This document shows positions 6,274 to 22,852 of a DNA stretch of 64,000 nucleotides, one piece after another (position 1 is the stretch's first letter; each line of letters starts with the position of its first letter). The notes beneath the pieces are model-generated. The model made no database searches and was not told the origin of the DNA. It was given only the letters and a program-made list of their open reading frames with translations. Origin of the DNA: an uncultured Acidobacteriota bacterium (GTDB taxonomy: Bacteria; Acidobacteriota; UBA6911; CAINFC01); contig CAINFC010000101.1 of the NCBI GenBank assembly GCA_903847975.1, forward strand, positions 62,001-126,000, read 5' to 3'. Both the position numbers and the translations under genes were made by a program.

Positions 6274-8523
6274 ATGGAAGAAATAAGTGAAAGGCGGCTG
6301 CACAGCCTTAAGCTGGTTTATGGCATAGCTTTGGCTTTCATCGCCCTGACCCTGCTTTCCTCGTCGCTGCTGATGCAGTATGTCATTCAGAGAAATGCGG
6401 GAGACTCCCGGGTGATCAACCTGTCCGGACGCCAGCGGATGCTTTCCCAGCGCCTGACGAAATGCGTTCTGGCCCTGGAGCGACCTTCTCTTTCCGCGGA
6501 AGAGAAAGCCAGGTGTGGAGAAGAGCTCGCCAGTAGCTTTGCCGATTGGAAGGCCGCCCATCGGGGACTGCAGTCAGGCGACGAAAAGCTCGGGCTGCCT
6601 GAAAGGGAGAATTCCGGGGAAATCAAATCGCTGTTTGCCGGAATCGAACCCTATTACGCCGCCATGGTAAGGGAGCTGGAAGCCATGGTCCGTCAAATCG
6701 ACCATCCCGATCCCGATCCGGACATCGTTCGCCGGACAGCGGAGGTCATGCTGGCCAACGAGCCGAAGTTCCTGCCGCTGATGGACCGGATTACTTTTCA
6801 ATTCGATCAGGAGGCCAAGGATCGGATTTTCTCCATGCAGCGGCTGGAAACCGGATTCCTGGCACTGGGCTTGCTGGTCCTGGTCCTGGAATTCCTGTTC
6901 GTATTCCGGCCTTCGCTGTCCCAGCTATCGGAGATGATGGCTTCCCTGCAGAAAAACGGGGAGCAGCTCAAGCTGTCGAACCAACGGCTGCAGGAGGCTC
7001 TGGATAACTCTCAGCGCCTGGCGGAGGTGGCCGAGGGTGCCAACCGTGCCAAAAGCGAGTTTTTGGCCAATATGAGCCATGAAATCCGAACTCCGATGAA
7101 TGCCATCATCGGGTTTTCGGATCTGCTGCTTCCCATGGCGCGCGACTCGAGGCAGTTAGAGTATGCCCAGTCGATCAGCAGCTCCGGCAAGGCACTTCTT
7201 CACCTGATCAATGACATCCTGGATCTTTCCCGGGTGGAGGCCGGCAAGCTGCAGATGACACCGGGCGCTTTTGCTCCCCCTGATTTCTTTCGGGAAGTGC
7301 GGCAGGTGTTTGCCCAGAAAGTTGCGGAGAAAAAGATTGACTTCCGGCTGGAGCTGGATTCCGGTCTGCCGGGTGCTCTGATCCTCGATGTAACCAGGCT
7401 CCGCCAGGTCCTGTTGAATCTGGTTGGAAATGCCATCAAATTTACCGACGACGGCTACATCCGGCTGGCGGTTTCGTGCCTGGACAGACCGGAGACGCAG
7501 GGGAGCCGCTGCAACCTGGAAATCCGGGTTGAGGATACGGGGATAGGCATTCCGGAAGCGGATCGGGAGAAGATATTCGGGGCCTTTGAACAGACCGCCG
7601 GCCAGGATCACGGAAAGTACGGCGGCACCGGACTGGGTCTGGCCATCAGCCGGAAGCTGGTTCACCTGATGAATGGAGACATCCGGGCGGAGAGGAATCC
7701 GGAAGGACGAGGAAGCGCCTTCGTTGTCCGCCTTTTATCCGTGCCTGTTGCCGCCTGTCTCCCGGATGGGACTCCCGGTGATGCCAAAGGCAGGGGATGG
7801 GCTTACTCCTTTCAGCCGGCTCGCATTCTGCTGGTGGACGACCTGGAAATCAACCGCCGGCTGTTGAGAGCGTATCTGCAAGGGCAGCCATTTGAATTTC
7901 TGGAAGCTTCCGACGGGCGGGAGGCTCTTGCCATCATGCGGGAGCAGACGCCGGACCTGGTGATCACTGATATCAAAATGCCCGGGATGAGAGGCGATGA
8001 GCTCGCCCGGGAGGCCGCCGCGGATGCCCGTCTGGCGGGAATCCCGGTTGTGGCGGTAACCGCATCGGCCATGCCCTCCCAGATGGAAGTCCTGCGCCCG
8101 CTCTTTCGCCGCATTTTCTTCAAGCCTCTCCGCCAGGGAGAACTGCTGGGGGAAATGGCTGAAATACTGAAAGCGGAGAGCTTGGCGATCATGACGGGAG
8201 TGGAAAAGCCAGGCACCGGAGAGAAGAAGGACGACCCCCTCTGCAGAGATCCGGAAGGGCTTCTCCGGCACCTGGCGGGCCTGGATACCGACTACCATGC
8301 AGCTTGCAAAACGATTCAGATCCACCGGGTCCGGAAATTCCAGAGCCTGGTAGCGGCAGCCGCCGAGAGCTTTCATGCTCCGGCGCTTTCCCGGTGGGCG
8401 GCTTCGCTGGAAGCGGCACTGACTTCCTTTAACATCAGCCAGATCAAGCTGGAAATGGGGCGCTATGCAGAAATTGCGGCGCTCTACCGGAGGTGCGGAT
8501 CTTGCACGGAGAGATTGCAATGA
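6274..8523 (+). CDS. Membrane hybrid sensor histidine kinase with PilJ-type sensor domain
   Basis: 749 residues, ATG at 6274 with AGGCGG upstream. A first membrane segment (about 12-34) is followed by the PilJ/type IV pili transducer N-terminal motif [16 protein letters not shown], a periplasmic helical stretch and a second membrane segment near 192-215. The HisKA box [17 protein letters not shown] carries the phospho-His269. An HATPase_c domain follows ([23 protein letters not shown]), then a receiver domain from about 516 with phospho-acceptor Asp566 in VITDIKMPG. The last 110 residues are helical but lack an HPt histidine motif. The next gene overlaps its stop by four bases, so the two should be co-translated. 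Confidence 0.92.
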
Positions 8524-9125
8524 ACGAGAGGTCCAGGATACCTCTGATCCTGGCGGTGGATGATAATGTCCAGAACCTGCAGCTCATCGGCAGCCTGCTC
8601 GACGAGAGTTTCGGTTGTGACCTTTCTCTGGCCACCAGCGGGGAGGAGGCGCAGGAGATCCTCCGGGAAGTCACGCCGGACCTGATTCTTCTCGATGTGA
8701 ATATGCCGGGCATGAACGGGTTTGACTTCTGCCGCCTCCTGCGGGCAGCGAAGGAAACCCGGGATACACCGGTCATATTCCTGACCGCCCAGCAGGCCAC
8801 AGATTATATCCTGCAAGGGTTTGCGGCCGGAGGGAACGACTATATCGGAAAGCCGTTCGAATCCCAGGAGCTTTTGGCCCGGGTGAAAGTCCATCTGTCC
8901 CTGAAGCTCCGCTCCGATGAGCTGAAAGCGGCTCTGGCACGAATCAAACGCCTGGAGGGTATCCTGCCCATCTGTATGTTCTGCAAGAAAATCCGGAACG
9001 ACGGGGATATCTGGCAGCAGGTGGACCATTACCTGACGGAGCACTCCGATGCTCTTTTCAGCCATGGTATCTGTCCCGACTGCATGCGTGTCCAGCTGGC
9101 GGAGCTGCGCCAAAAGACCCCGTGA
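8520..9125 (+). CDS. Response regulator with C-terminal CxxC...CxxC module
   Basis: 201 residues. The ATG at 8520 overlaps the kinase stop (ATGA) and has GGAGAG upstream; an in-frame ATG 27 bases earlier is less well placed. Residues 5-125 are a receiver domain (LAVDDNVQN, phospho-Asp59 in [11 protein letters not shown], Lys in YIGKPF). There is no DNA-binding domain. The C-terminus instead holds a cysteine module with CMFC (Cys152, Cys155) and CPDC (Cys185, Cys188) around [20 protein letters not shown], a pattern that recurs at the end of some bacterial signalling proteins and would suit a metal site. It is probably the output partner of the preceding kinase. Confidence 0.88.
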
Positions 9126-9153
9126 AATGCGGGGAGAGGATTTTCTCTTTGCC

Positions 9154-10026
9154 TCAAAGGGCAGGGGCCGGGAAAAGGGTGCGCAGGAAGCGCAGGTTCT
9201 CCCGATAGCAATCGACCAAAGGCCTGCCCTTGGCGGTAGCTCCTTCGATGATCAGCCATCCGTTCCAATCGAGATCGTCCAGGGTGTCCTTGACCTTTTT
9301 CAGATCGACCGTTCCCTGACCCAATAGGCTGCCGTTTTCCTTGAGGTGAATTTCGCAGATCCGGGCGCGGCCCAGCCGGCGCATATCCCTGAAAATATCG
9401 TAGCCCTGGGCGGTCATGTTGCAAACATCGTAGTAAACCTGCACCGCCGGCGATCCGACAGCGTCGAGGATACGGATATGATCCTCGCTGTCGAGCCATG
9501 ACTCCAGGCCCAGAACAATGCCGGATTTTTCCGCTTGAGGGGCGATTTTCTTCAGGCGCCGGATCACGGCTTTCTGCGCTTCCGGCTGATTCCTGATGTC
9601 TCCCTTGCCGAAGAAGGCAACCAGGACGACCTTTTGATTCATCCGGGCCATGGTATCGATGCAGTCGGAAACCCAGGTCTCGCTGTCCGGGTCCGAGGCA
9701 TAAGGCCGATCGTTCAGTACCCCCATGGCCAGGGAGGCGACTGCAACCCCGAGGCGTGCGGAGGTCTCCTGGTACTGGCGGCGGACCTCCGGCTTGCGCA
9801 GGTCATAGCGAAGCCCGGGTTCTCCAAAGCTGACCTGCACCCCGTCGAGCCCGATTTCCCGGGCGATCTCCAGAGCGGAAAGCTCGTGCCGGCGCTGCAG
9901 GGACCAGTCGCAGGCCCCTATTTGGAACGTACGTTTTCCGCCGGCGGTCCGTGCGGCAAGGAAGGGCAGGGCCGCCATTCCCAGGCTTTCTCTCCACAGC
10001 TGTCGACGATTGAATCGGTTCGGCAT
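9154..10026 (-). CDS. Tat-exported sugar phosphate isomerase/epimerase-like TIM barrel
   Basis: 290 residues; the ATG at 10026 has AGGAGG eight bases upstream. The N-terminus NRRQLWRESLGMAALPFLAA is a twin-arginine signal. The body is an AP-endonuclease-2/xylose-isomerase-like barrel: IGLDGVQVSFGEP, VVLVAFFGKGD, LESWLDSEDH, VYYDVCNM, ICEIHLKENG, GWLIIEGA. Acidic and histidine residues at strand ends suit a divalent metal site for sugar isomerisation or epimerisation. It starts 82 bases after the BtuB-like gene on the same strand without a visible terminator between them, so it may share that gene's cobalamin riboswitch. Confidence 0.85.
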   Translation of the reverse strand: MPNRFNRRQLWRESLGMAALPFLAARTAGGKRTFQIGACDWSLQRRHELSALEIAREIGLDGVQVSFGEPGLRYDLRKPEVRRQYQETSARLGVAVASLAMGVLNDRPYASDPDSETWVSDCIDTMARMNQKVVLVAFFGKGDIRNQPEAQKAVIRRLKKIAPQAEKSGIVLGLESWLDSEDHIRILDAVGSPAVQVYYDVCNMTAQGYDIFRDMRRLGRARICEIHLKENGSLLGQGTVDLKKVKDTLDDLDWNGWLIIEGATAKGRPLVDCYRENLRFLRTLFPAPAL

Positions 10027-10108
10027 GCGTATTCCTCCTGCTAATTTTTCTCCCGGGAATCGGTTTTTTGCAAGCGGAATGTTTCCGGGAGGTTCCTGCA
10101 ACCTCTGT

Positions 10109-12301
10109 TTACCAGCGCGGGCGATAGCGTATGCCGCAGCGAACCTGAAACCCGGGAGAAGGATACCCCTGCACCTCAAAGTAGTTGCGGTTGAGCAGGT
10201 TTTCTGCCACGGCATACAGATCCACTTCTCGTGCGGGCCGGAAGGATACGATGGCGTCCCAGCGGCTGTAAAAGGGCAAAGTGGTCAGTCCGAGCCCGTA
10301 GAAGTCGCCATCCCTCCGGCTGCCGACCAGGTAAAGGTCTGTCTGCAGGGTCCAGCGCCGGCGATCCCAGGTGGCGGCCAGAAAGCCGGAATGTCCGGGC
10401 CGCCGCAGCAGCGGGGACCCGACACTCAGCAGGGGATTGAAGGGAGAAGCGCTTTCCGTAACCCGGGTGTTCAGATACGTATAGCTTCCGGAAAGACGCA
10501 GATCCCTCGCCACTTGAGCTTTTACGGAGGTTTCCGCGCCCCAGGCCCGGCTGCGGCCGATGTTGAAAAAGGACCCGGAATAGGTTACCCAATCGGTAGT
10601 CAGCAGGGCGATTTGATCACGGAAGCGGTTGAAGAACAGATTGGTCTCGATCTGCAGCCGCCGTCCAGCCAGGGACTGCTCCCATCCGACTTCGAAGCTC
10701 CGGGTTTTTTCCGGCCGGAGATCCGGGTTTCCCTTATACCAGAAGTTGGTGCTGAACGATTCGATGAACGACGGCTCTTTAATTCCCAGCCCGAAATTGA
10801 ATTTGGCACGGGAGGAACCCCAAAAGCCCCCGGAGGAATCCTTGCGAACCAGGTAGGCGGCGCTCATTCGGGGCACGGCGGCCAGGCCGTAGCTCTGGTT
10901 GTCCTCCAGCCGTACCCCCGCGGTGACGGCCAGACGCGGCAGCAGCAGAATCTGGTCCTGAAGGTAATAACCGCGGTTCCGGCGGCGGGCATCGGTTTCG
11001 CCGACGCGCCCGCGCTGTTCTTCCCAGTCCATGCCGGCGGTCAGGGTTTGCCGGTCCCAGCGAAAATCGCTCTGGTAGCTGGCGCTTTGCCGGCGCGTGG
11101 AGTTCAGAAAGGAATAGGGGTAGTCGCAGTAGGGGTAGGGAGCGGAATGCCCCGCAAAGCTGGGTGTGAAGCAGCCGGAATCGGCCGGATTGTCGGAAAG
11201 CTGGTGAATGAAGGATTGCGAATAGGAAACTTTCTGGTGCCAGAAGGGAGAGGATTCATAATTCCAGGCAGCTCCCAGGTCGTGATCCTTGCGCAGCGAG
11301 TAGGCGTCCAGGTCGGCCGGGCCGAAAGCGATGGGACCGGCGACTCCGTGCCTGCCCCGCTCCACTCTTCCTACCAGGTCCAGTGTGGAATGGGCAGAAA
11401 GGGTCAGGCCGATCCGGCTGCTCATGACCTGGTTCCGATAGAAATCGTTGGGGCCCTGGTTGCGGGTACTTCCCTGTTGTAGGCCGAAGCTGTATTGGAG
11501 GCGCCGGTAAAGACCGCGGACAGACGCGCCGGCTGTGCCGGCGTGCCGGGTTCCGCCTTCAAGCTGGAAGTCCAGTGAAGGGCGGGAGTCCGCATCTTCC
11601 GGATGTCGGGTAAACAGCTGGATCACCCCGCCGATGGCGTCGGTACCGTACAGTGCGCTCTGCGGTCCGCGGACCACTTCCACCCGCTCGATTTCGGCGG
11701 TCGACAGATTGGAAAGATCCATGTCCCCGCCCGGCTGGTTCAAAGGAATTCCATCCAGCAAAACCTTGGTATAGTTGGAAGGAGCCCCGCGGAGAAATGT
11801 CGAGGCAACTCCGCCACGGCTGCCGGTCTGAACCAGGTTCATTCCCGGAAGGTGTCGCAGCAGTTCGGTTACGCTGGATGCCTGCCGGCGCCCGATCTCC
11901 TCGGGAGCAATGATGCTGATGCTGTAGCCCGAAAGGCTCGGGGAGCTGTCGGTCCGCGTGGCCGTCACCACGACTTTTTCCTGGATGGATTCAAGCGAGA
12001 GAGTCACATCCTCCTGCTGAATCCGGCCGGATTCCAGCCGGACAGGCCGTTCCTCGCGGTTGAATCCGAGCCGGGAAAGGCAAAGATAATAGTCGCCCGG
12101 ACGAATGGAGTCAAAAAGGTATTTCCCGTCGCGGCCGCTGACCGTGGAAGCTACCGCACGCCCGTTCTGATAGAGCATCAGGCGTACCCCGGGGACCGTG
12201 CTCCGGGACGGGTCGGTAATTTTTCCAGTCAGGGATTCTCCCAGGACAAACAGCCCGGTGCTCAGCCACACGGCTAAGAGAAAAAAAGAATGCCGAAACA
12301 T
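10109..12301 (-). CDS. btuB: TonB-dependent outer-membrane receptor, BtuB-like (cobalamin uptake)
   Basis: 730 residues from the ATG at 12301, preceded by AGGAGG and giving a clean signal peptide (HSFFLLAVWLSTGLFVL). A carboxypeptidase-like regulatory fold comes first (LTGKITDPSRSTVPGVRL), then a TonB box-like stretch and plug domain (LLRHLPGMNLVQTGSRGG, FLRGAPSNYTKVLLDGIPLN, VEVVRGPQSALYGTDAIGGV) very like BtuB plugs, then a 22-strand-type barrel ending in an aromatic-rich strand (GIRYRPRW). The cobalamin riboswitch directly upstream strongly supports vitamin B12 or another corrinoid as the ligand. An inner-membrane BtuCDF transporter is not in the window. Confidence 0.9.
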   Translation of the reverse strand: MFRHSFFLLAVWLSTGLFVLGESLTGKITDPSRSTVPGVRLMLYQNGRAVASTVSGRDGKYLFDSIRPGDYYLCLSRLGFNREERPVRLESGRIQQEDVTLSLESIQEKVVVTATRTDSSPSLSGYSISIIAPEEIGRRQASSVTELLRHLPGMNLVQTGSRGGVASTFLRGAPSNYTKVLLDGIPLNQPGGDMDLSNLSTAEIERVEVVRGPQSALYGTDAIGGVIQLFTRHPEDADSRPSLDFQLEGGTRHAGTAGASVRGLYRRLQYSFGLQQGSTRNQGPNDFYRNQVMSSRIGLTLSAHSTLDLVGRVERGRHGVAGPIAFGPADLDAYSLRKDHDLGAAWNYESSPFWHQKVSYSQSFIHQLSDNPADSGCFTPSFAGHSAPYPYCDYPYSFLNSTRRQSASYQSDFRWDRQTLTAGMDWEEQRGRVGETDARRRNRGYYLQDQILLLPRLAVTAGVRLEDNQSYGLAAVPRMSAAYLVRKDSSGGFWGSSRAKFNFGLGIKEPSFIESFSTNFWYKGNPDLRPEKTRSFEVGWEQSLAGRRLQIETNLFFNRFRDQIALLTTDWVTYSGSFFNIGRSRAWGAETSVKAQVARDLRLSGSYTYLNTRVTESASPFNPLLSVGSPLLRRPGHSGFLAATWDRRRWTLQTDLYLVGSRRDGDFYGLGLTTLPFYSRWDAIVSFRPAREVDLYAVAENLLNRNYFEVQGYPSPGFQVRCGIRYRPRW

Positions 12302-12384
12302 ACGCCTCCTGAAAAGGCGTCTTGAAAGCTCGGGGATTGCATGAATTCCCAACTTCTTGGACGCGAAAAGTTGCGAACAAGCTG

Positions 12385-12566
12385 GCTGGGGCAGGTTTCC
12401 TGACTTGCGGCTCAAACGAGAGCTTTGAAGCCTTCCCCCGGAACGCCCGGAGTGGCCGGCGGGCCATCCCGCCGAATCAAAGCCCTCTTGCCGATCACAG
12501 TGACGCGACCGTGCGGGATTTTCACCCGCTTCCCTCTTGCGCTGACACCCCAGCAGGGCTTAAAAG
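12385..12566 (-). promoter_or_regulatory. Cobalamin riboswitch (AdoCbl class)
   Basis: On the minus strand the leader contains the ordered conserved blocks of a cobalamin riboswitch: AGGGAAGCGGGTGAAAATCC, CACGGTCGCGTCACTGTGA, GGCCACTCCGGG, GGGGGAAGGC and the B12 box GCCGCAAGTCAGGAAACCTG at about 12391-12411. It ends about 85 bases before the BtuB-like start codon, as expected for control of translation or transcription by adenosylcobalamin. It fills the gap between that gene and the S8 protease gene. Confidence 0.95.
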
Positions 12567-12572
12567 TCCGAG

Positions 12573-12600
12573 AATATCACCGAATCCGTGGGGCTGTCAA
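12573..12600 (-). promoter_or_regulatory. Sigma70-type promoter of the riboswitch/btuB transcript
   Basis: On the minus strand a consensus TTGACA (12600-12595) is followed after 16 bases by GATATT (12578-12573). The predicted start near 12566 falls just before the first riboswitch stem. Confidence 0.6.
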
Positions 12601-16661: not shown

Positions 16662-17471
16662 ATGCGAATCCCTCGACTGACGCGGCTCCGCGCAGGCATT
16701 CTGCTGCTTGCCGGGATCCTGGTCCTTACCCCGTCCTTTCTGGCGGCGCAGTCCTCGAAAGCCGATTTAAACTGGAATGTTCATGATCCGACGCGCCCTA
16801 TGGCCACCGTAGTGACCCCGGGCACCCCGAGTACGGAGGAAAAGGCGGGTTCGCCTCCCTCCGATGCCATCGTTCTTTTCAACGGCAAGGATCTTTCCGG
16901 CTGGATCAGCGATAAGACCAAAGGCCCCGCGGAGTGGAAGGTGGAAAACGGAACCATGGAAGCGGTCAAGGGAAAAGGGGGCATTCGCACCAGCCAGGGC
17001 TTTGGCGACTGCCAGTTGCACATCGAATGGAGAACGCCCGATCCGCCGGTCGGGAAGGGGCAGGATCGCGGCAACAGTGGTGTTTTCCTGATGGGCATCT
17101 ACGAAGTTCAAGTGCTCGACACCTACCAGGCCCAGACCTATGCCGACGGCCAGGCCGGGGCTCTTTACGGGCAGTTCCCTCCGCTGGTCAATCCGATCCT
17201 TCCTCCGGGCAAGTGGCAGACCTACGATATCATTTTCCACCGGCCGAGGTTCGACAAGGACGGCCAGGTGACCCGACCGGCCTATGTCACCGTGTTCATG
17301 AACGGGGTTCTAGTCCAGGACAACGCCGAGCTGACCGGGCCCACCTCTCACAAGGCCCGGCCGGCCTATAAAGCCCATGCCGACCGGATGCCGCTGGGCC
17401 TGCAGGACCACGCCCACCCGGTGCGCTTCCGCAATATCTGGGTCCGGGACCTGGAAAAACCCGCTCAATAA
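16662..17471 (+). CDS. DUF1080 / 3-keto-disaccharide hydrolase-family protein, exported
   Basis: 269 residues, ATG at 16662 with AAGGAG. A signal peptide (GILLLAGILVLTPSFLAAQ) is followed by a single concanavalin-like lectin/glucanase domain typical of PF06439: IVLFNGKDLSGW, EWKVENGTMEA, WRTPDPP, GNSGVFLMGIYEVQVLDTY, WQTYDIIFHRP, LQDHAHPVRFRNIWVR. Members act extracytoplasmically on glycans; some hydrolyse 3-keto-glycosides produced by Gfo/Idh-type dehydrogenases. Such dehydrogenases occur at 20.8, 33.4 and 36.5 kb in this window, so a role in that oxidative route is plausible but inferred. Confidence 0.88.
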   Translation: MRIPRLTRLRAGILLLAGILVLTPSFLAAQSSKADLNWNVHDPTRPMATVVTPGTPSTEEKAGSPPSDAIVLFNGKDLSGWISDKTKGPAEWKVENGTMEAVKGKGGIRTSQGFGDCQLHIEWRTPDPPVGKGQDRGNSGVFLMGIYEVQVLDTYQAQTYADGQAGALYGQFPPLVNPILPPGKWQTYDIIFHRPRFDKDGQVTRPAYVTVFMNGVLVQDNAELTGPTSHKARPAYKAHADRMPLGLQDHAHPVRFRNIWVRDLEKPAQ

Positions 17472-17903: not shown

Positions 17904-18938
17904 CTACCGCAAGTCCGGGTCATAAAAAGCCAGAACGTTCTCGGGGGGAACTTCCGGCTGGAAAAGGTGGCCGGGAGCCAGTATGTAGCCGCCGCTTTCG
18001 CCCAGGACCCGGCAATACCCAGCCACGGTGCTCCGGACTTCTTCCGCGCTGCCGAAAGGGAGCAGCCGTTGCATGTCCACTCCTCCGTGAAAGGCAAGCC
18101 GCCCGCCGAACTCCGCGTGCAGCGCCTCCGGCTGCAAAGCCGGGCTCAAAGGCTGGATCGGGTCCAGCAGGTCCACGCCGAGCTTCTCCAGCGCCGGCAG
18201 AAAGGCACCTATATTGCCGCAGGAATGAAAAAGCACCCTGGCTCCCAGGCCGTGTATGGTGTCGCAAAGGGACCGCAGGTAGGGCGCGACAAACTCCTGG
18301 AACATCCTCGGTGAGATTAACGGCCCGGCCTGGTGGCCCAGGTCGCTGATGACCAGGTACAGGTCGATTCGCCCGCCGCTGGCTTCCGCTGCCCGCGTAT
18401 AATCTTCCTGGTAAAACCGGGTGAAGCGGCTGCAGAGCGCATGAACCCAGTCCGGGTGCTCGACCAGATCGGAAAACCAGTTTTCCCAGCCGCGCACCAG
18501 GCCGGGCCGCTGCCAGATGTCCGCAAAGCCGTAAAGCAAGGCGTAGTTTTCATGCCGGTCGCAATCTGCGGCGAGGCGGGAGTAGTCGAATCCGTCCGGA
18601 GAGGGCCACGGAAAGCGATCCAGATCTTCCGCGCACCGGGCTCCGGCCAGGGCTCCCGGGAGATCCTCCCGCATGGGACCCCAGTCGGTCGGGCGGTAGA
18701 GGTACCTTTCTCCCCAGAAATTCTGACAGATGCCGCCCGGGAGCGATATCTCCGGCGGGCCGGGAACTTCCAGGTGGCGCAGATCCACCTGCAGCTGTCG
18801 CAGCAGTTTTTCCGGCGCATCATGTCCGGTGTAGTCCAGGAGCCTCTTCCAGGCGGGGGGCTCGGCCCAGAAGTCGGCCGGGGTGCGGTCCGGTTTCTGA
18901 TGGGAAAGGGCGGCCAGCACCCTTTCCCGGGGAAGCAT
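17904..18938 (-). CDS. Uroporphyrinogen decarboxylase-family protein (methyltransferase-like)
   Basis: 344 residues; the ATG at 18938 opens with MLPRERVLAALSHQKPDRTP, the standard start of the URO-D superfamily, eight bases after the NagB-like gene stops. The motif LFHSCGNIGAFLPALEKLGVDLLDPIQP carries the His-x-Cys-Gly type zinc site of MtaA/CmuA-like corrinoid methyltransferases rather than a porphyrin-binding set, and no haem genes are nearby. Position as the last gene of a sugar operon is common for this subfamily in environmental bacteria, where its function is not established. Confidence 0.8.
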   Translation of the reverse strand: MLPRERVLAALSHQKPDRTPADFWAEPPAWKRLLDYTGHDAPEKLLRQLQVDLRHLEVPGPPEISLPGGICQNFWGERYLYRPTDWGPMREDLPGALAGARCAEDLDRFPWPSPDGFDYSRLAADCDRHENYALLYGFADIWQRPGLVRGWENWFSDLVEHPDWVHALCSRFTRFYQEDYTRAAEASGGRIDLYLVISDLGHQAGPLISPRMFQEFVAPYLRSLCDTIHGLGARVLFHSCGNIGAFLPALEKLGVDLLDPIQPLSPALQPEALHAEFGGRLAFHGGVDMQRLLPFGSAEEVRSTVAGYCRVLGESGGYILAPGHLFQPEVPPENVLAFYDPDLR

Positions 18939-18946
18939 GGCGGCCT

Positions 18947-19876
18947 TCAATGCATTTCCACGCCGCAGCTGCCGATACCCCCGCGATAAAAGTTGAACTG
19001 CACGTTGGGGTGCTCGCCCAGCAGAGACATGGGCACCGCCGTGTCCACGATTTTCTTGGCGATCATCAGGGTGGTCAGCCGCTGTCCGAACGGATTGTCG
19101 TGCGTGCCGGCGTGCCAGATGGACACCTTTTCCGCTTTCCAGGTTTCCGCCGGGCCGACGGTAATCGCCTTGACCGGGACCAGGGTAACGTTCCCTCCCC
19201 CGCTGGTCCGCGCGTTCTGGGCGATGGTTACCGGGTGCAGGTCCACAACCCGCGTGGCCAGCTTTCGATATTCGGCCGCCGTCGGCGGATCGTTCCGGTA
19301 GCGTCCGGCGCGTCGCGGCGGATCGTTGAAAGCCCAGTGCTTGATGTCTCCCTGCCCGCCCTGCATGACCACGCACCGCACCCCTTCCCAGCTTTTCCGG
19401 TAGGCAGCGGTATCCGCCTTGGGAAAGTGAAGCTGGGCGTCAGGCATGACCAGCTCTTTGCGGATGCGCCGGAAACAGAGCTCGCGATCCGCCTTTTCGA
19501 AAGACAGAGGATGGGTGGGGGGAGCCTCGCGGTCCTCGAGATACCATTCGTCCATGCCCCAGAAGTGGGCGGCTTTCAGGGAAATCCCCAGCTCGTTGAC
19601 CAGGCGGGCCACCAGCGGGAGCTGCTCGGTCGGCCCGATCGGCCCGCATATGCCGGCCGGATTGTCCGGCGTGGCCTGTCGCCAGGCGTGGATGTATTCC
19701 AGGGCCTCCGCCAGGTAGAAATCTTCCAGGGTATCGTAGAGCACGACCTGGAATCCGGGGCGGGAAAGCTTGCGCATTTTTTCCGCCGTCAGCGTGGCGG
19801 CATCCTGGATAATCGCGGTGTCCAGAGTGGTGTAATCCCACCAGTCCGGAGCCAGGGAACTCAGTTTTCGCGGCAT
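18947..19876 (-). CDS. Glucosamine-6-phosphate deaminase-like (NagB/6-phosphogluconolactonase fold)
   Basis: 309 residues, ATG at 19876 with AAAGGC upstream. [59 protein letters not shown] and [21 protein letters not shown] follow the NagB order, with [12 protein letters not shown] taking the place of the usual GxGxDGHIAFN active-site loop. The motif WGMDEWYL corresponds to the NagB FNMDEY-type substrate loop. It is probably a deaminase or isomerase of an amino sugar phosphate. It sits between the PIG-L deacetylase gene and the UroD-like gene, with gaps of 43 and 8 bases. Confidence 0.82.
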
Positions 19877-19919
19877 GGCAAAGCCTTTCTGAAAATGGAG
19901 GAATGAAGTTTGGGCAACG

Positions 19920-20774
19920 TCATATGTAGGGGGTTTCGAGAAGCTTCCGGTAGGCCGGATTGGGAAGATAATCGCGGCCCAGGTGCTGCAGCGGATCGGC
20001 CTCCGCAAGGCAGAAACCCAGGTGGCTGTGGCGGCGCCAGCCTTCCGCCAGGGGAAACTTGCCGGATTGCCGGCCCATCTCCCGGGACATATCCACCATC
20101 GTCCGGGTGTAGGAATTCAGTTTCTGGGTAGCCCCCAGCCAGTGCTGCTGGCTGCGGTGCTGCTGCAGGGCGGTCAGCTTCTGCTCCTGTACCGCAGTCA
20201 CGTTGACAAAGCACCCCGGAAGGACTTTCCTTCCCAGGGCGTCTCTTAAGCCGTGGGGCATGCTGTGGTAGACCGTCAGGTCAAATGGCCGGCCCTGCCT
20301 TCGGGGAACGCTGACGAAGTTGACGGCTCCCCGGACAAAGGCGGCCGTCACGGTCAGCCGGCAGGCGTTCTGGTGGTCCTCCATGTAATCGTTGGGAGAG
20401 TGCGTCAGAATCAGGTCCGGCTCGATTTCCCGGATCACGGCGGCAAGGCGCCGGACCAGTTTCAGGTCGTAGAGAATTTCCAGGTCGCCGCAAAAAGGCG
20501 GATGGTAATGGGCGCCCAGCAGCCTGGCGGACTGCCTTGCTTCCTGCCCCCGTACCTGTGCGGTGCGCCGGGCGTCATATTGCAGCGAGCCCAGGTTTCC
20601 CGAAGCCAGGTTCAGGTAATGAATTTCCGCCCCGATTCCTTTCAGCAGGAGAAGGGTGCCGGCCATCAGGAACTCGATATCGTCCGGGTGCGCGCCGACC
20701 GCCAGGGCGGTTTTCGGCGGCCGGGCGTCGCTCGGTCCGGGATTTTTCGGGGATTTCGTGGTACGGGCAGGCAT
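19920..20774 (-). CDS. PIG-L/LmbE-family deacetylase
   Basis: 284 residues, ATG at 20774, 15 bases after the Gfo/Idh stop. The zinc site is clear: [11 protein letters not shown] near residue 26 and [12 protein letters not shown] further on. The family removes N-acetyl groups from sugars such as GlcNAc-PI, GlcNAc-inositol and chitobiose. Placement directly before a NagB-like gene suggests deacetylation followed by deamination of an N-acetylated sugar. No signal peptide, so probably cytoplasmic. Confidence 0.9.
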
Positions 20775-20789
20775 GGCGAAAGCTGTGGC

Positions 20790-21818
20790 TTATCTTTTTC
20801 TGTTCCGGTTTTTTTCCGCGGAGGCGTCCGCCTGGAAAATGACCTGGTGGGTGCGCATGGCATCGGCCAGGCTGGTCAGCGGCATTTCCTTTCCTTTCCG
20901 AATGGCGTCGAAAAAAGCTTCGAACTGCGTCTGGTACGGATGGTCGGAGACGTCCCCCGAGTCGAGCATTTTCATGGCCAGCCAGCTCCACTTGCTTTTG
21001 TCCGTGCCTGCCATTCGGCTGGAGTAAAACCGGTTGTCGAGCAGGCTGCCTTCGCTGCCCACCAGGTGGGTGTGGAAGTAGTAGGGCTGCAGGCAGTCGA
21101 TCACCGCCGCGCACTTTCCCACCCTGCCGTCCTTGAACCGCAGAATGGTAACGCTGCTGGTGGGATATTCGTAGCGCGAAAAGTCCTGGTTGGCGGAATG
21201 GGTGGAGTAGCTGCAAACCTGATCCACTTCCGGATCGCCCAGGCAATACAGCAGGGCGTCCATGGCGTGGCAGCCGGCGGACAGCAGGGCGCTGCCTCCG
21301 GACTCCCGGCGTATATTCCAGCGAAACTGCCCGTACCAGGGTCCGATCCCGTGGAAGTAGTCGACTTCCGCATAATGAATGGTTCCGAGCAGGCCCTGTT
21401 CGATGATCGCCCGTGTGGCCTGCAGCTGGCTCGAAAAGCGGCATTCGAAGCAGACACAGGTTTTGACCCCGGCGGCCTGCACCGCTTTCTGGACGGCCAG
21501 GCATTCCTTCCAGGATAGGGCAATCGGCTTTTCGAGAATGATATGCTTGCCGGCCTTGGCAGCAGCTACCGCCAGCCGGCCGTGCTTTTCCGGAAGATCG
21601 CAGATGGAGACTACATCCAATCCGGGATGGGCCAGCATTTCCTCGAACCGGCGATAGGTACGAATGGGGGACTGCCACTGGGCGCTGAGGTCGGCATCCG
21701 AAAGCGGCCGTGAGGAACAGACCGCCACAACCCGGGCGTTCGGATTGCGGTTGATGGCGGCGATATGGGCTCCGGCAACCCAGCCGTAGCCGACGATGCC
21801 TACGTTCAATGGTTTCAA
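20790..21818 (-). CDS. Gfo/Idh/MocA-family oxidoreductase (TTG start)
   Basis: 342 residues. A TTG at 21818 preceded by GGGAGG at good spacing opens the protein immediately before the Rossmann fold (LNVGIVGYGWVAGAHIAAI); an upstream in-frame ATG would add 33 residues with no family match. The NAD-binding motif and EKPIALSWKE (the conserved EKP) are present, followed by the alpha/beta C-terminal domain. It is a likely NAD(P)-dependent sugar or inositol dehydrogenase, and the first gene of the four-gene operon running to 17904. Confidence 0.88.
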   Translation of the reverse strand: MKPLNVGIVGYGWVAGAHIAAINRNPNARVVAVCSSRPLSDADLSAQWQSPIRTYRRFEEMLAHPGLDVVSICDLPEKHGRLAVAAAKAGKHIILEKPIALSWKECLAVQKAVQAAGVKTCVCFECRFSSQLQATRAIIEQGLLGTIHYAEVDYFHGIGPWYGQFRWNIRRESGGSALLSAGCHAMDALLYCLGDPEVDQVCSYSTHSANQDFSRYEYPTSSVTILRFKDGRVGKCAAVIDCLQPYYFHTHLVGSEGSLLDNRFYSSRMAGTDKSKWSWLAMKMLDSGDVSDHPYQTQFEAFFDAIRKGKEMPLTSLADAMRTHQVIFQADASAEKNRNRKR

Positions 21819-22042
21819 GTCAACCTCCCTGGAATGAATCGGTATGAGCCGGGCCGGGAAAGACCGCGGAAATCCCCGGCCGCGCGGAGGGGGACGGAAT
21901 TCGTGTTGTGGTTCCATTTCATGGTATTCCCTCCTGAACGGCGGATTTCATTGTATCATGCGTTGGTCGGGAGGGCACCGGCGCCGGGTACAATTTGTTT
22001 TCTGTATCAACTGGGAAATTTCGCGAAAAGGAGCCGATTCAT

Positions 22043-22852
22043 ATGGACACCAAGGAGCACACCTGGGAGAATCCGGTATTATCGCGCCTGCGCTCGGGGC
22101 AGCCCGTGCTGGCCATGACGCTGGTATCTAACAATGTGGAGGCTGCGGCCCATGCCGCCGGATTGGGCTTCCACTTCCTATGGGTGGAGATGGAGCACTC
22201 GCCCGTTACCCTGGAAACCCTGCGTACGGTGGTTCTGGCCACCCGTTTCCTGCCGGCCATGGTATTTGCGCGCGTTCCGGTGAACGAACTCTGGACCGCC
22301 AAGCGGGTGCTGGACCAGGGAGTGACCGGGGTGATTTTTCCTTTCACCGGGACACCGGAACTGGCGGCCCAGGCGGCTGCCGCGTGCCGGTACCCGCCGC
22401 TCGGAAGGCGCGGCTCCGGAGCCGGCCTGGCCACGGCTTCCTGGCCGGAGCCCGGCAGCTACTACGACTCCGCGGACCGCAACGTGGCGGTGGTGGCGGT
22501 GATCGAGGAAAAGCGCGCCCTGGACGACATCGATGCCATTGCCGCGGTCCCCGGAATTGATATCCTGTTTATCGGCACCAGCGACCTGTCGTTCTCGCTC
22601 GGACTGCGCGGCCGTCAGGACGAGCCGGAGCTGAAAGAAGCCGTCGCGCGGATTGCCGCCGCCGCCAAAAAGCACGGCAAATTCCTGGGCCGGCCGGCCA
22701 AGAATGCGGAGCAGATCCGCACTTACATGGAGCAGGGATTTCTCCTTTTCCAGGTATGCACGGAGCTGGGCCTGATGAGCCTTGGGGCCCAGCAGATCCT
22801 GAGCCCGCTGGGACTGGCCGGGCTGCCCGGAGGGAAGAAAGCCCTTTACTGA
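22043..22852 (+). CDS. HpcH/HpaI-family 2-keto-3-deoxy sugar-acid aldolase
   Basis: 269 residues, ATG at 22043 with AAAAGGAG upstream; the ORF extends further but without family match. Typical class II pyruvate-aldolase signatures are present: FLWVEMEHSPVTLETLR, FARVPVNELWTAKRVLDQGVTGVIFP, RYPPLGRRGSG, VIEEKRALDDIDAIAAVPGIDILFIGTSDLS. It would reversibly split a 2-keto-3-deoxy acid to pyruvate and an aldehyde, in the cytoplasm. It is divergent from the amino-sugar operon; the shared 224-base region may hold promoters, of which TACAAT at 21989-21994 is a weak candidate. Confidence 0.88.
   Translation: MDTKEHTWENPVLSRLRSGQPVLAMTLVSNNVEAAAHAAGLGFHFLWVEMEHSPVTLETLRTVVLATRFLPAMVFARVPVNELWTAKRVLDQGVTGVIFPFTGTPELAAQAAAACRYPPLGRRGSGAGLATASWPEPGSYYDSADRNVAVVAVIEEKRALDDIDAIAAVPGIDILFIGTSDLSFSLGLRGRQDEPELKEAVARIAAAAKKHGKFLGRPAKNAEQIRTYMEQGFLLFQVCTELGLMSLGAQQILSPLGLAGLPGGKKALY

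Follow-up and report, generated by a model that had tools for sequence, protein, structure and literature searches.

A cobalamin riboswitch ahead of a likely B12 receptor gene in an uncultured Acidobacteriota bacterium, followed by an isomerase-like gene that is probably a passenger

The 64,000-nucleotide stretch of DNA analysed here (the window) carries what we consider, with a good deal of confidence, to be an ordinary corrinoid-repressed outer-membrane receptor unit, in which a cobalamin riboswitch acts as a translational switch on a BtuB-like receptor gene and the following gene, for a TIM barrel protein, is most likely a passenger. The RF00174 covariance model matches the minus strand at 12373-12567 with 89.8 bits (E 6.7e-21) against a gathering score of 31.5 bits, and the alignment runs through model positions 1-189 (window 12567-12373), the full length of the aptamer; the riboswitch that the first-pass annotation had read from the letters is thereby confirmed. 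No other Rfam match in the window reaches gathering score; the end of this one lies 71 bases from the receptor start codon, and we take the stretch around 12413-12391 (minus) to be the B12 box. Adenosylcobalamin would presumably be the ligand. In the genome as a whole (8,130,373 bases in 326 contigs, 99.12% complete) the window copy is the only RF00174 match detected, in scans that scored 150 of 1020 first-look candidates and, in another run, 34 of 810; a weak second copy might be missed because only this fraction of candidates was scored.

Upstream of the aptamer there is a sigma-70-like promoter at 12571-12600 (minus), where the TTGACA box that had been pointed out earlier is indeed present at 12600-12595 and is followed, 16 or 18 bases on, by GATATT (12578-12573) or TATTCT (12576-12571), giving 10 of 12 consensus matches. 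A transcript from this site would begin at about the first aptamer base. By eye, the leader of one relative (G016) has TTGAC upstream of its aptamer as well, and promoter-like sites were commoner than in shuffles (7 against a mean of 1.5). An S8 peptidase gene (14017-12623, minus) lies upstream of the leader in the same direction and stops 22 bases short of the promoter-like site; transcription running on from it into the leader is possible.

The receptor gene (10109-12301, minus; ATG at 12301, stop at 10109) encodes 730 amino acids with CarboxypepD_reg, Plug (PF07715) and TonB barrel (PF00593) domains, and thus has both plug and beta-barrel. The best NCBIfam models are TIGR01779 TonB-B12 and BtuB, and the closest solved structures are those of E. 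coli BtuB. We do not class the protein as a certified BtuB because TIGR01779, though its best model, scores 226.6 bits, far under the equivalog cut-off of 599.7. It is BtuB-like and likely to serve B12 uptake, the grounds for corrinoid transport being the riboswitch and the linkage of receptor and riboswitch in relatives.

That linkage, together with the covariance model and the protein comparisons, upholds the earlier description of a BtuB-like receptor behind a riboswitch. Among the 60 genomes searched, 38 have a receptor match at E 1e-30 or better (own genome counted in both), and in 34 of these 38 RF00174 lies upstream of the best receptor match on the same strand, within 1 kb in 22 genomes and 1-6 kb away in the other 12. 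The tally uses the best receptor match per genome only (38 of 48 rows), with at most 18 receptor candidates scored per genome, and leaves out two below-cut-off RF00174 rows, both from G007. In the four genomes without an upstream riboswitch, the receptor match starts at contig base 9 (G028, contig C627), stops 127 bases short of the contig end (G037, contig C398), is preceded at the contig start by an ORF that by eye resembles an ABC ATPase (G021), or has no such contig-edge circumstance (G022). The G037 receptor relative (L065, L117) lies at a contig end and also contains one TAG within the matched stretch. BtuFCD-like genes accompany the receptor in relatives with readable flanks: Peripla_BP_2, FecCD and ABC_tran genes follow it in G037, and similar ORFs found by tblastn adjoin it in G028 (after) and G019 (before). 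In three relatives RF00174 occurs as tandem pairs on the same strand directly before the receptor (G009:C35:7542-8027, which is contained in L130; G023:C114:8255-8773; G001:C17:40944-41521). The L129 stretch of one relative holds three Acido-Lenti-1 RNA matches (1503-1547, 1700-1744 and 2371-2415), which hint at Acidobacteriota relatives. A literature search on cobalamin riboswitches and TonB-dependent receptors in Acidobacteria gave nothing on this point in the titles and abstract openings of the papers retrieved.

The own genome most likely imports B12 rather than making it. Of its 23 B12-binding domain matches 21 pass the cut-off; it also has one CobA/CobO/BtuR adenosyltransferase, while CobS and PF01923 were not found in it; with B12-binding domains and a BtuR-type adenosyltransferase present and synthesis genes not found, the cell would therefore depend on uptake. 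The one CbiA/CobQ candidate, the sole PF07685 match (30.3 bits), was rejected, since its neighbour ORF resembles HisB by eye, which makes HisH its probable identity. No transporter gene adjoins the window riboswitch. Three FecCD genes sit on other contigs (C86, C208 and C276), two of them (C86 and C208) with Peripla_BP_2 neighbours, and the C208 set comes after another TonB receptor.

Between aptamer and start codon the leader looks like a translational switch. Directly after the aptamer a putative P13 hairpin (12350-12373, minus) would form between CAACUU and AAGUUG, with UCGCGUC in its loop, which places a CGCG in L13 at 12365-12362; a second CGCG, in the putative L5 loop, lies inside the aptamer at 12507-12504 (minus). 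The loop names are those we presume to apply, in line with the corrinoid-riboswitch literature. Nearer the gene, a putative ribosome-site hairpin (ACGCCT/AGGCGT, 12302-12320, minus) covers the Shine-Dalgarno sequence AGGAGG at 12310-12305, which is spaced only 3 bases from the receptor ATG, a spacing that counts against the proposed reading. A competing pairing would join GCGUC of L13 (12364-12360) to GACGC (12321-12317, minus), the partner being the 5' arm of the Shine-Dalgarno stem. A plausible scenario is that, when adenosylcobalamin is plentiful, it would bind the aptamer, L5 and L13 would kiss and P13 would form; with P13 formed, the 5' arm ACGCC would be available to GGCGU, and the pairing of the two would mask the Shine-Dalgarno sequence, so that the receptor would not be translated. 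When adenosylcobalamin is scarce, GCGUC of L13 would instead pair with GACGC, leaving the ribosome site open and allowing the receptor to be made.

We infer the ligand, direction and mechanism of this switch from pairings that are possible ones. Seven P13 pairs can form in all six leaders compared, one pair being altered on both sides in one sequence, and in all six GCGUC of L13 can pair with a downstream GACGC or GGCGC. Five of the six pairs of the ribosome-site stem were counted as one helix, which is 89.7% paired across the six leaders; the hairpin is disrupted in two of them, by one pair in G016 and by two in G028. Statistical support is modest: with six leaders, the pair counts of P13 and the platform helices are not above the shuffle control, and slid versions score lower; fold energies of the expression platform are not clearly better than those of shuffles (z -0.30 and -1.13). 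Both putative loops carry a CGCG that is identical across the five leaders aligned through the aptamer, so that there is no covariation by which to judge L5-L13 kissing. A scheme of kissing loops and alternative pairing is set out for corrinoid riboswitches in PMC10653944, and the window leader resembles it.

The gene behind the receptor (9154-10026, minus) encodes a Tat-type xylose-isomerase-like TIM barrel protein of 290 amino acids. The intergenic gap (10027-10108, minus) is 82 bases long and contains a Shine-Dalgarno-like AGGAGG at 10039-10034, 7 bases ahead of the TIM gene's ATG. It holds no intrinsic terminator-like site on the minus strand, so coordinates and terminator scan agree with the earlier remark that an 82-base gap without visible terminator separates the genes, and its folding is no more stable than that of shuffles (z 0.11 and -0.81). 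A terminator-like hairpin does follow the TIM gene (9118-9134, minus), facing a plus-strand gene ending at 9125. That neighbour, a response regulator gene (8493-9125, plus), is convergent with the TIM gene, and its end overlaps the hairpin (9134-9118). Terminator-like sites are not clearly commoner than in shuffles (8 against a mean of 6.7; in a second run 3 against 1.4), so the terminator evidence is weak. Co-transcription of receptor and TIM gene is nonetheless plausible, as the only terminator-like site found at the pair comes after the TIM gene and not in the gap.

If so, the two genes might be a single operon whose repression by B12 extends to both by way of Rho-dependent polarity or mRNA decay when the receptor goes untranslated; with no terminator found between them, they may be regulated jointly at the level of the transcript. 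The shared strand, the short gap and the placing of the terminator-like hairpin fit this arrangement, and E. coli btuB-murI (PMC11841063) offers an example of an unrelated gene on a B12-riboswitch transcript. We nevertheless regard it as rather unlikely, given that the pair occurs in no other genome searched, that an AGGAGG of its own precedes the TIM gene, and that a promoter-like site matching 9 of 12 consensus positions lies within the receptor 3' end (10272-10243). The same ribosome site and promoter-like site, the latter of a kind commoner than in shuffles, would suit a TIM gene transcribed from its own promoter and independent of B12, which we entertain as a tentative possibility; against it, no promoter-like site reaching threshold was found within the gap, and matching a consensus is in itself no proof of function. 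We favor the possibility that the TIM gene is a passenger, perhaps on the receptor transcript, which the translational switch need not control because the gene comes with a ribosome site of its own; the switch would be felt there at most via polarity or mRNA decay.

A conserved receptor-TIM pair acting as a B12-regulated operon was considered and rejected. The search covered 60 genomes (own included), 38 genomes of the class that overlap those 60, and 18 outside loci; the relatives include none of the same genus or family, and the pair was seen in no other genome among them. At E 1e-10, 7 of the 59 relatives have a TIM homologue. The first-pass annotation had raised the question of whether the gene pair is kept in relatives, and here the answer went against it: in none of these seven was the TIM gene found near a riboswitch, and no receptor-like ORF was found in their TIM loci. 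Six of the seven have their RF00174 matches on a different contig from the TIM gene or, in G018, 184 kb away from it, and the seventh (G021) has no RF00174 match; several of the contigs that carry the TIM gene span only 3 to 18 kb, and the non-linkage holds up to contig ends. A receptor-like ORF is absent by phmmer (E 1e-5) from TIM loci L003-L030, whose flanks in relatives cover roughly 1.5 kb unless the contig ends sooner, the sole receptor match falling in L002, the own copy. RF00174 at gathering score is likewise absent from 11 TIM loci with flanks of at most about 1.5 kb (among them the own copy, L002, which ends before its own riboswitch, and an own-genome paralogue, L012; two genes are counted as two loci each) and from the stretches read of all 18 outside TIM loci.

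As a family, the Tat-exported sugar-isomerase-like protein described earlier stands, export being predicted. Its PF01261 score is 108.1 bits against a gathering cut-off of 31.1, and its nearest solved relatives, at weak scores, are D-tagatose 3-epimerases. When the window protein is aligned with 12 homologues picked from 28 other loci, E175, D200, H227 and E261 are invariant in all 13 sequences, and we take them to correspond to the four metal ligands of D-tagatose 3-epimerase; 12 of the 13 carry the twin arginine, the remaining row being cut at the N-terminus by a contig end. By record title the 18 outside loci belong to Planctomycetota, Bacteroidota genera, Verrucomicrobiae, Acidobacteria and others, one match (L030) being weak. 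Neighbours identified beside TIM homologues are Gfo/Idh oxidoreductases (L132 and L022) and a DUF7133/HEAT/cytochrome c protein (L019), and further loci have different neighbours. These gene maps are longest-ORF picks in which some genes are misframed, and they lack a TIM ORF at 3 of the 18 loci (L013, L015 and L030), although a separate ORF search does find one in L013 and L015.

This bears on the idea that the pairing is functional and that the TIM protein acts on corrinoids or in B12 uptake. Adjacency is all that speaks for it, along with the expectation that both products lie outside the cytoplasm; the Gfo/Idh or DUF7133/cytochrome c neighbours of its relatives, and the lack of a B12 riboswitch in the stretches read at their loci, argue against it, and we consider it extremely improbable. 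Scarcely more credible is the notion that, in this lineage, the amount of a periplasmic sugar-isomerase-like enzyme is governed by B12 supply, which, if true, would tie corrinoid uptake to sugar use or to corrinoid processing outside the cell. A role in a 3-keto-sugar route is our guess, prompted by neighbours of this kind and by published work on enzymes that share the annotation. About 6 kb from the TIM gene, the window has a 3-keto-disaccharide hydrolase (PF06439), a Gfo/Idh oxidoreductase, a PIG-L deacetylase, a URO-D family protein and an HpcH/HpaI aldolase clustered at 16662-17471 and 17904-22852, which suggests a sugar-use region.

A B12 switch before a likely B12 receptor is the standard arrangement, as in many bacteria, and the find is essentially ordinary; the TIM gene after the receptor is probably a chance neighbour, and the isomerase half of the first-pass title is probably of little meaning. 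What is gained is a sound annotation, in that the sole detected B12 switch of a large and seemingly B12-import-dependent genome is assigned to a likely receptor. It also follows that, before a gene behind a riboswitch-controlled receptor is labelled B12-regulated, the mode of the switch and the conservation of the pair need to be considered.

The same-class sets of receptor with Peripla_BP_2, FecCD and ABC_tran genes share with the window a homologous receptor, mostly with RF00174 upstream; in those sets transport genes adjoin the receptor, whereas in the window the TIM gene takes that place and the FecCD genes are on other contigs. Levoglucosan LgdB and Agrobacterium OGE and HYD, enzymes of 3-keto-sugar routes, carry the annotation sugar phosphate isomerase/epimerase, and their genes have oxidoreductase genes as neighbours (PMC7676230 and PMC10628242); the TIM protein is likened to them by annotation and oxidoreductase neighbours, not by sequence. 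The likeness to E. coli btuB-murI (PMC11841063) is that of an unrelated passenger gene behind a B12-riboswitch receptor gene, and the authors discuss disrupted riboswitch repression as a component of a transcript-level change. There the second gene is murI and published work handles the two genes as an operon, whereas in the window the second gene is isomerase-like and the operon is a putative one.
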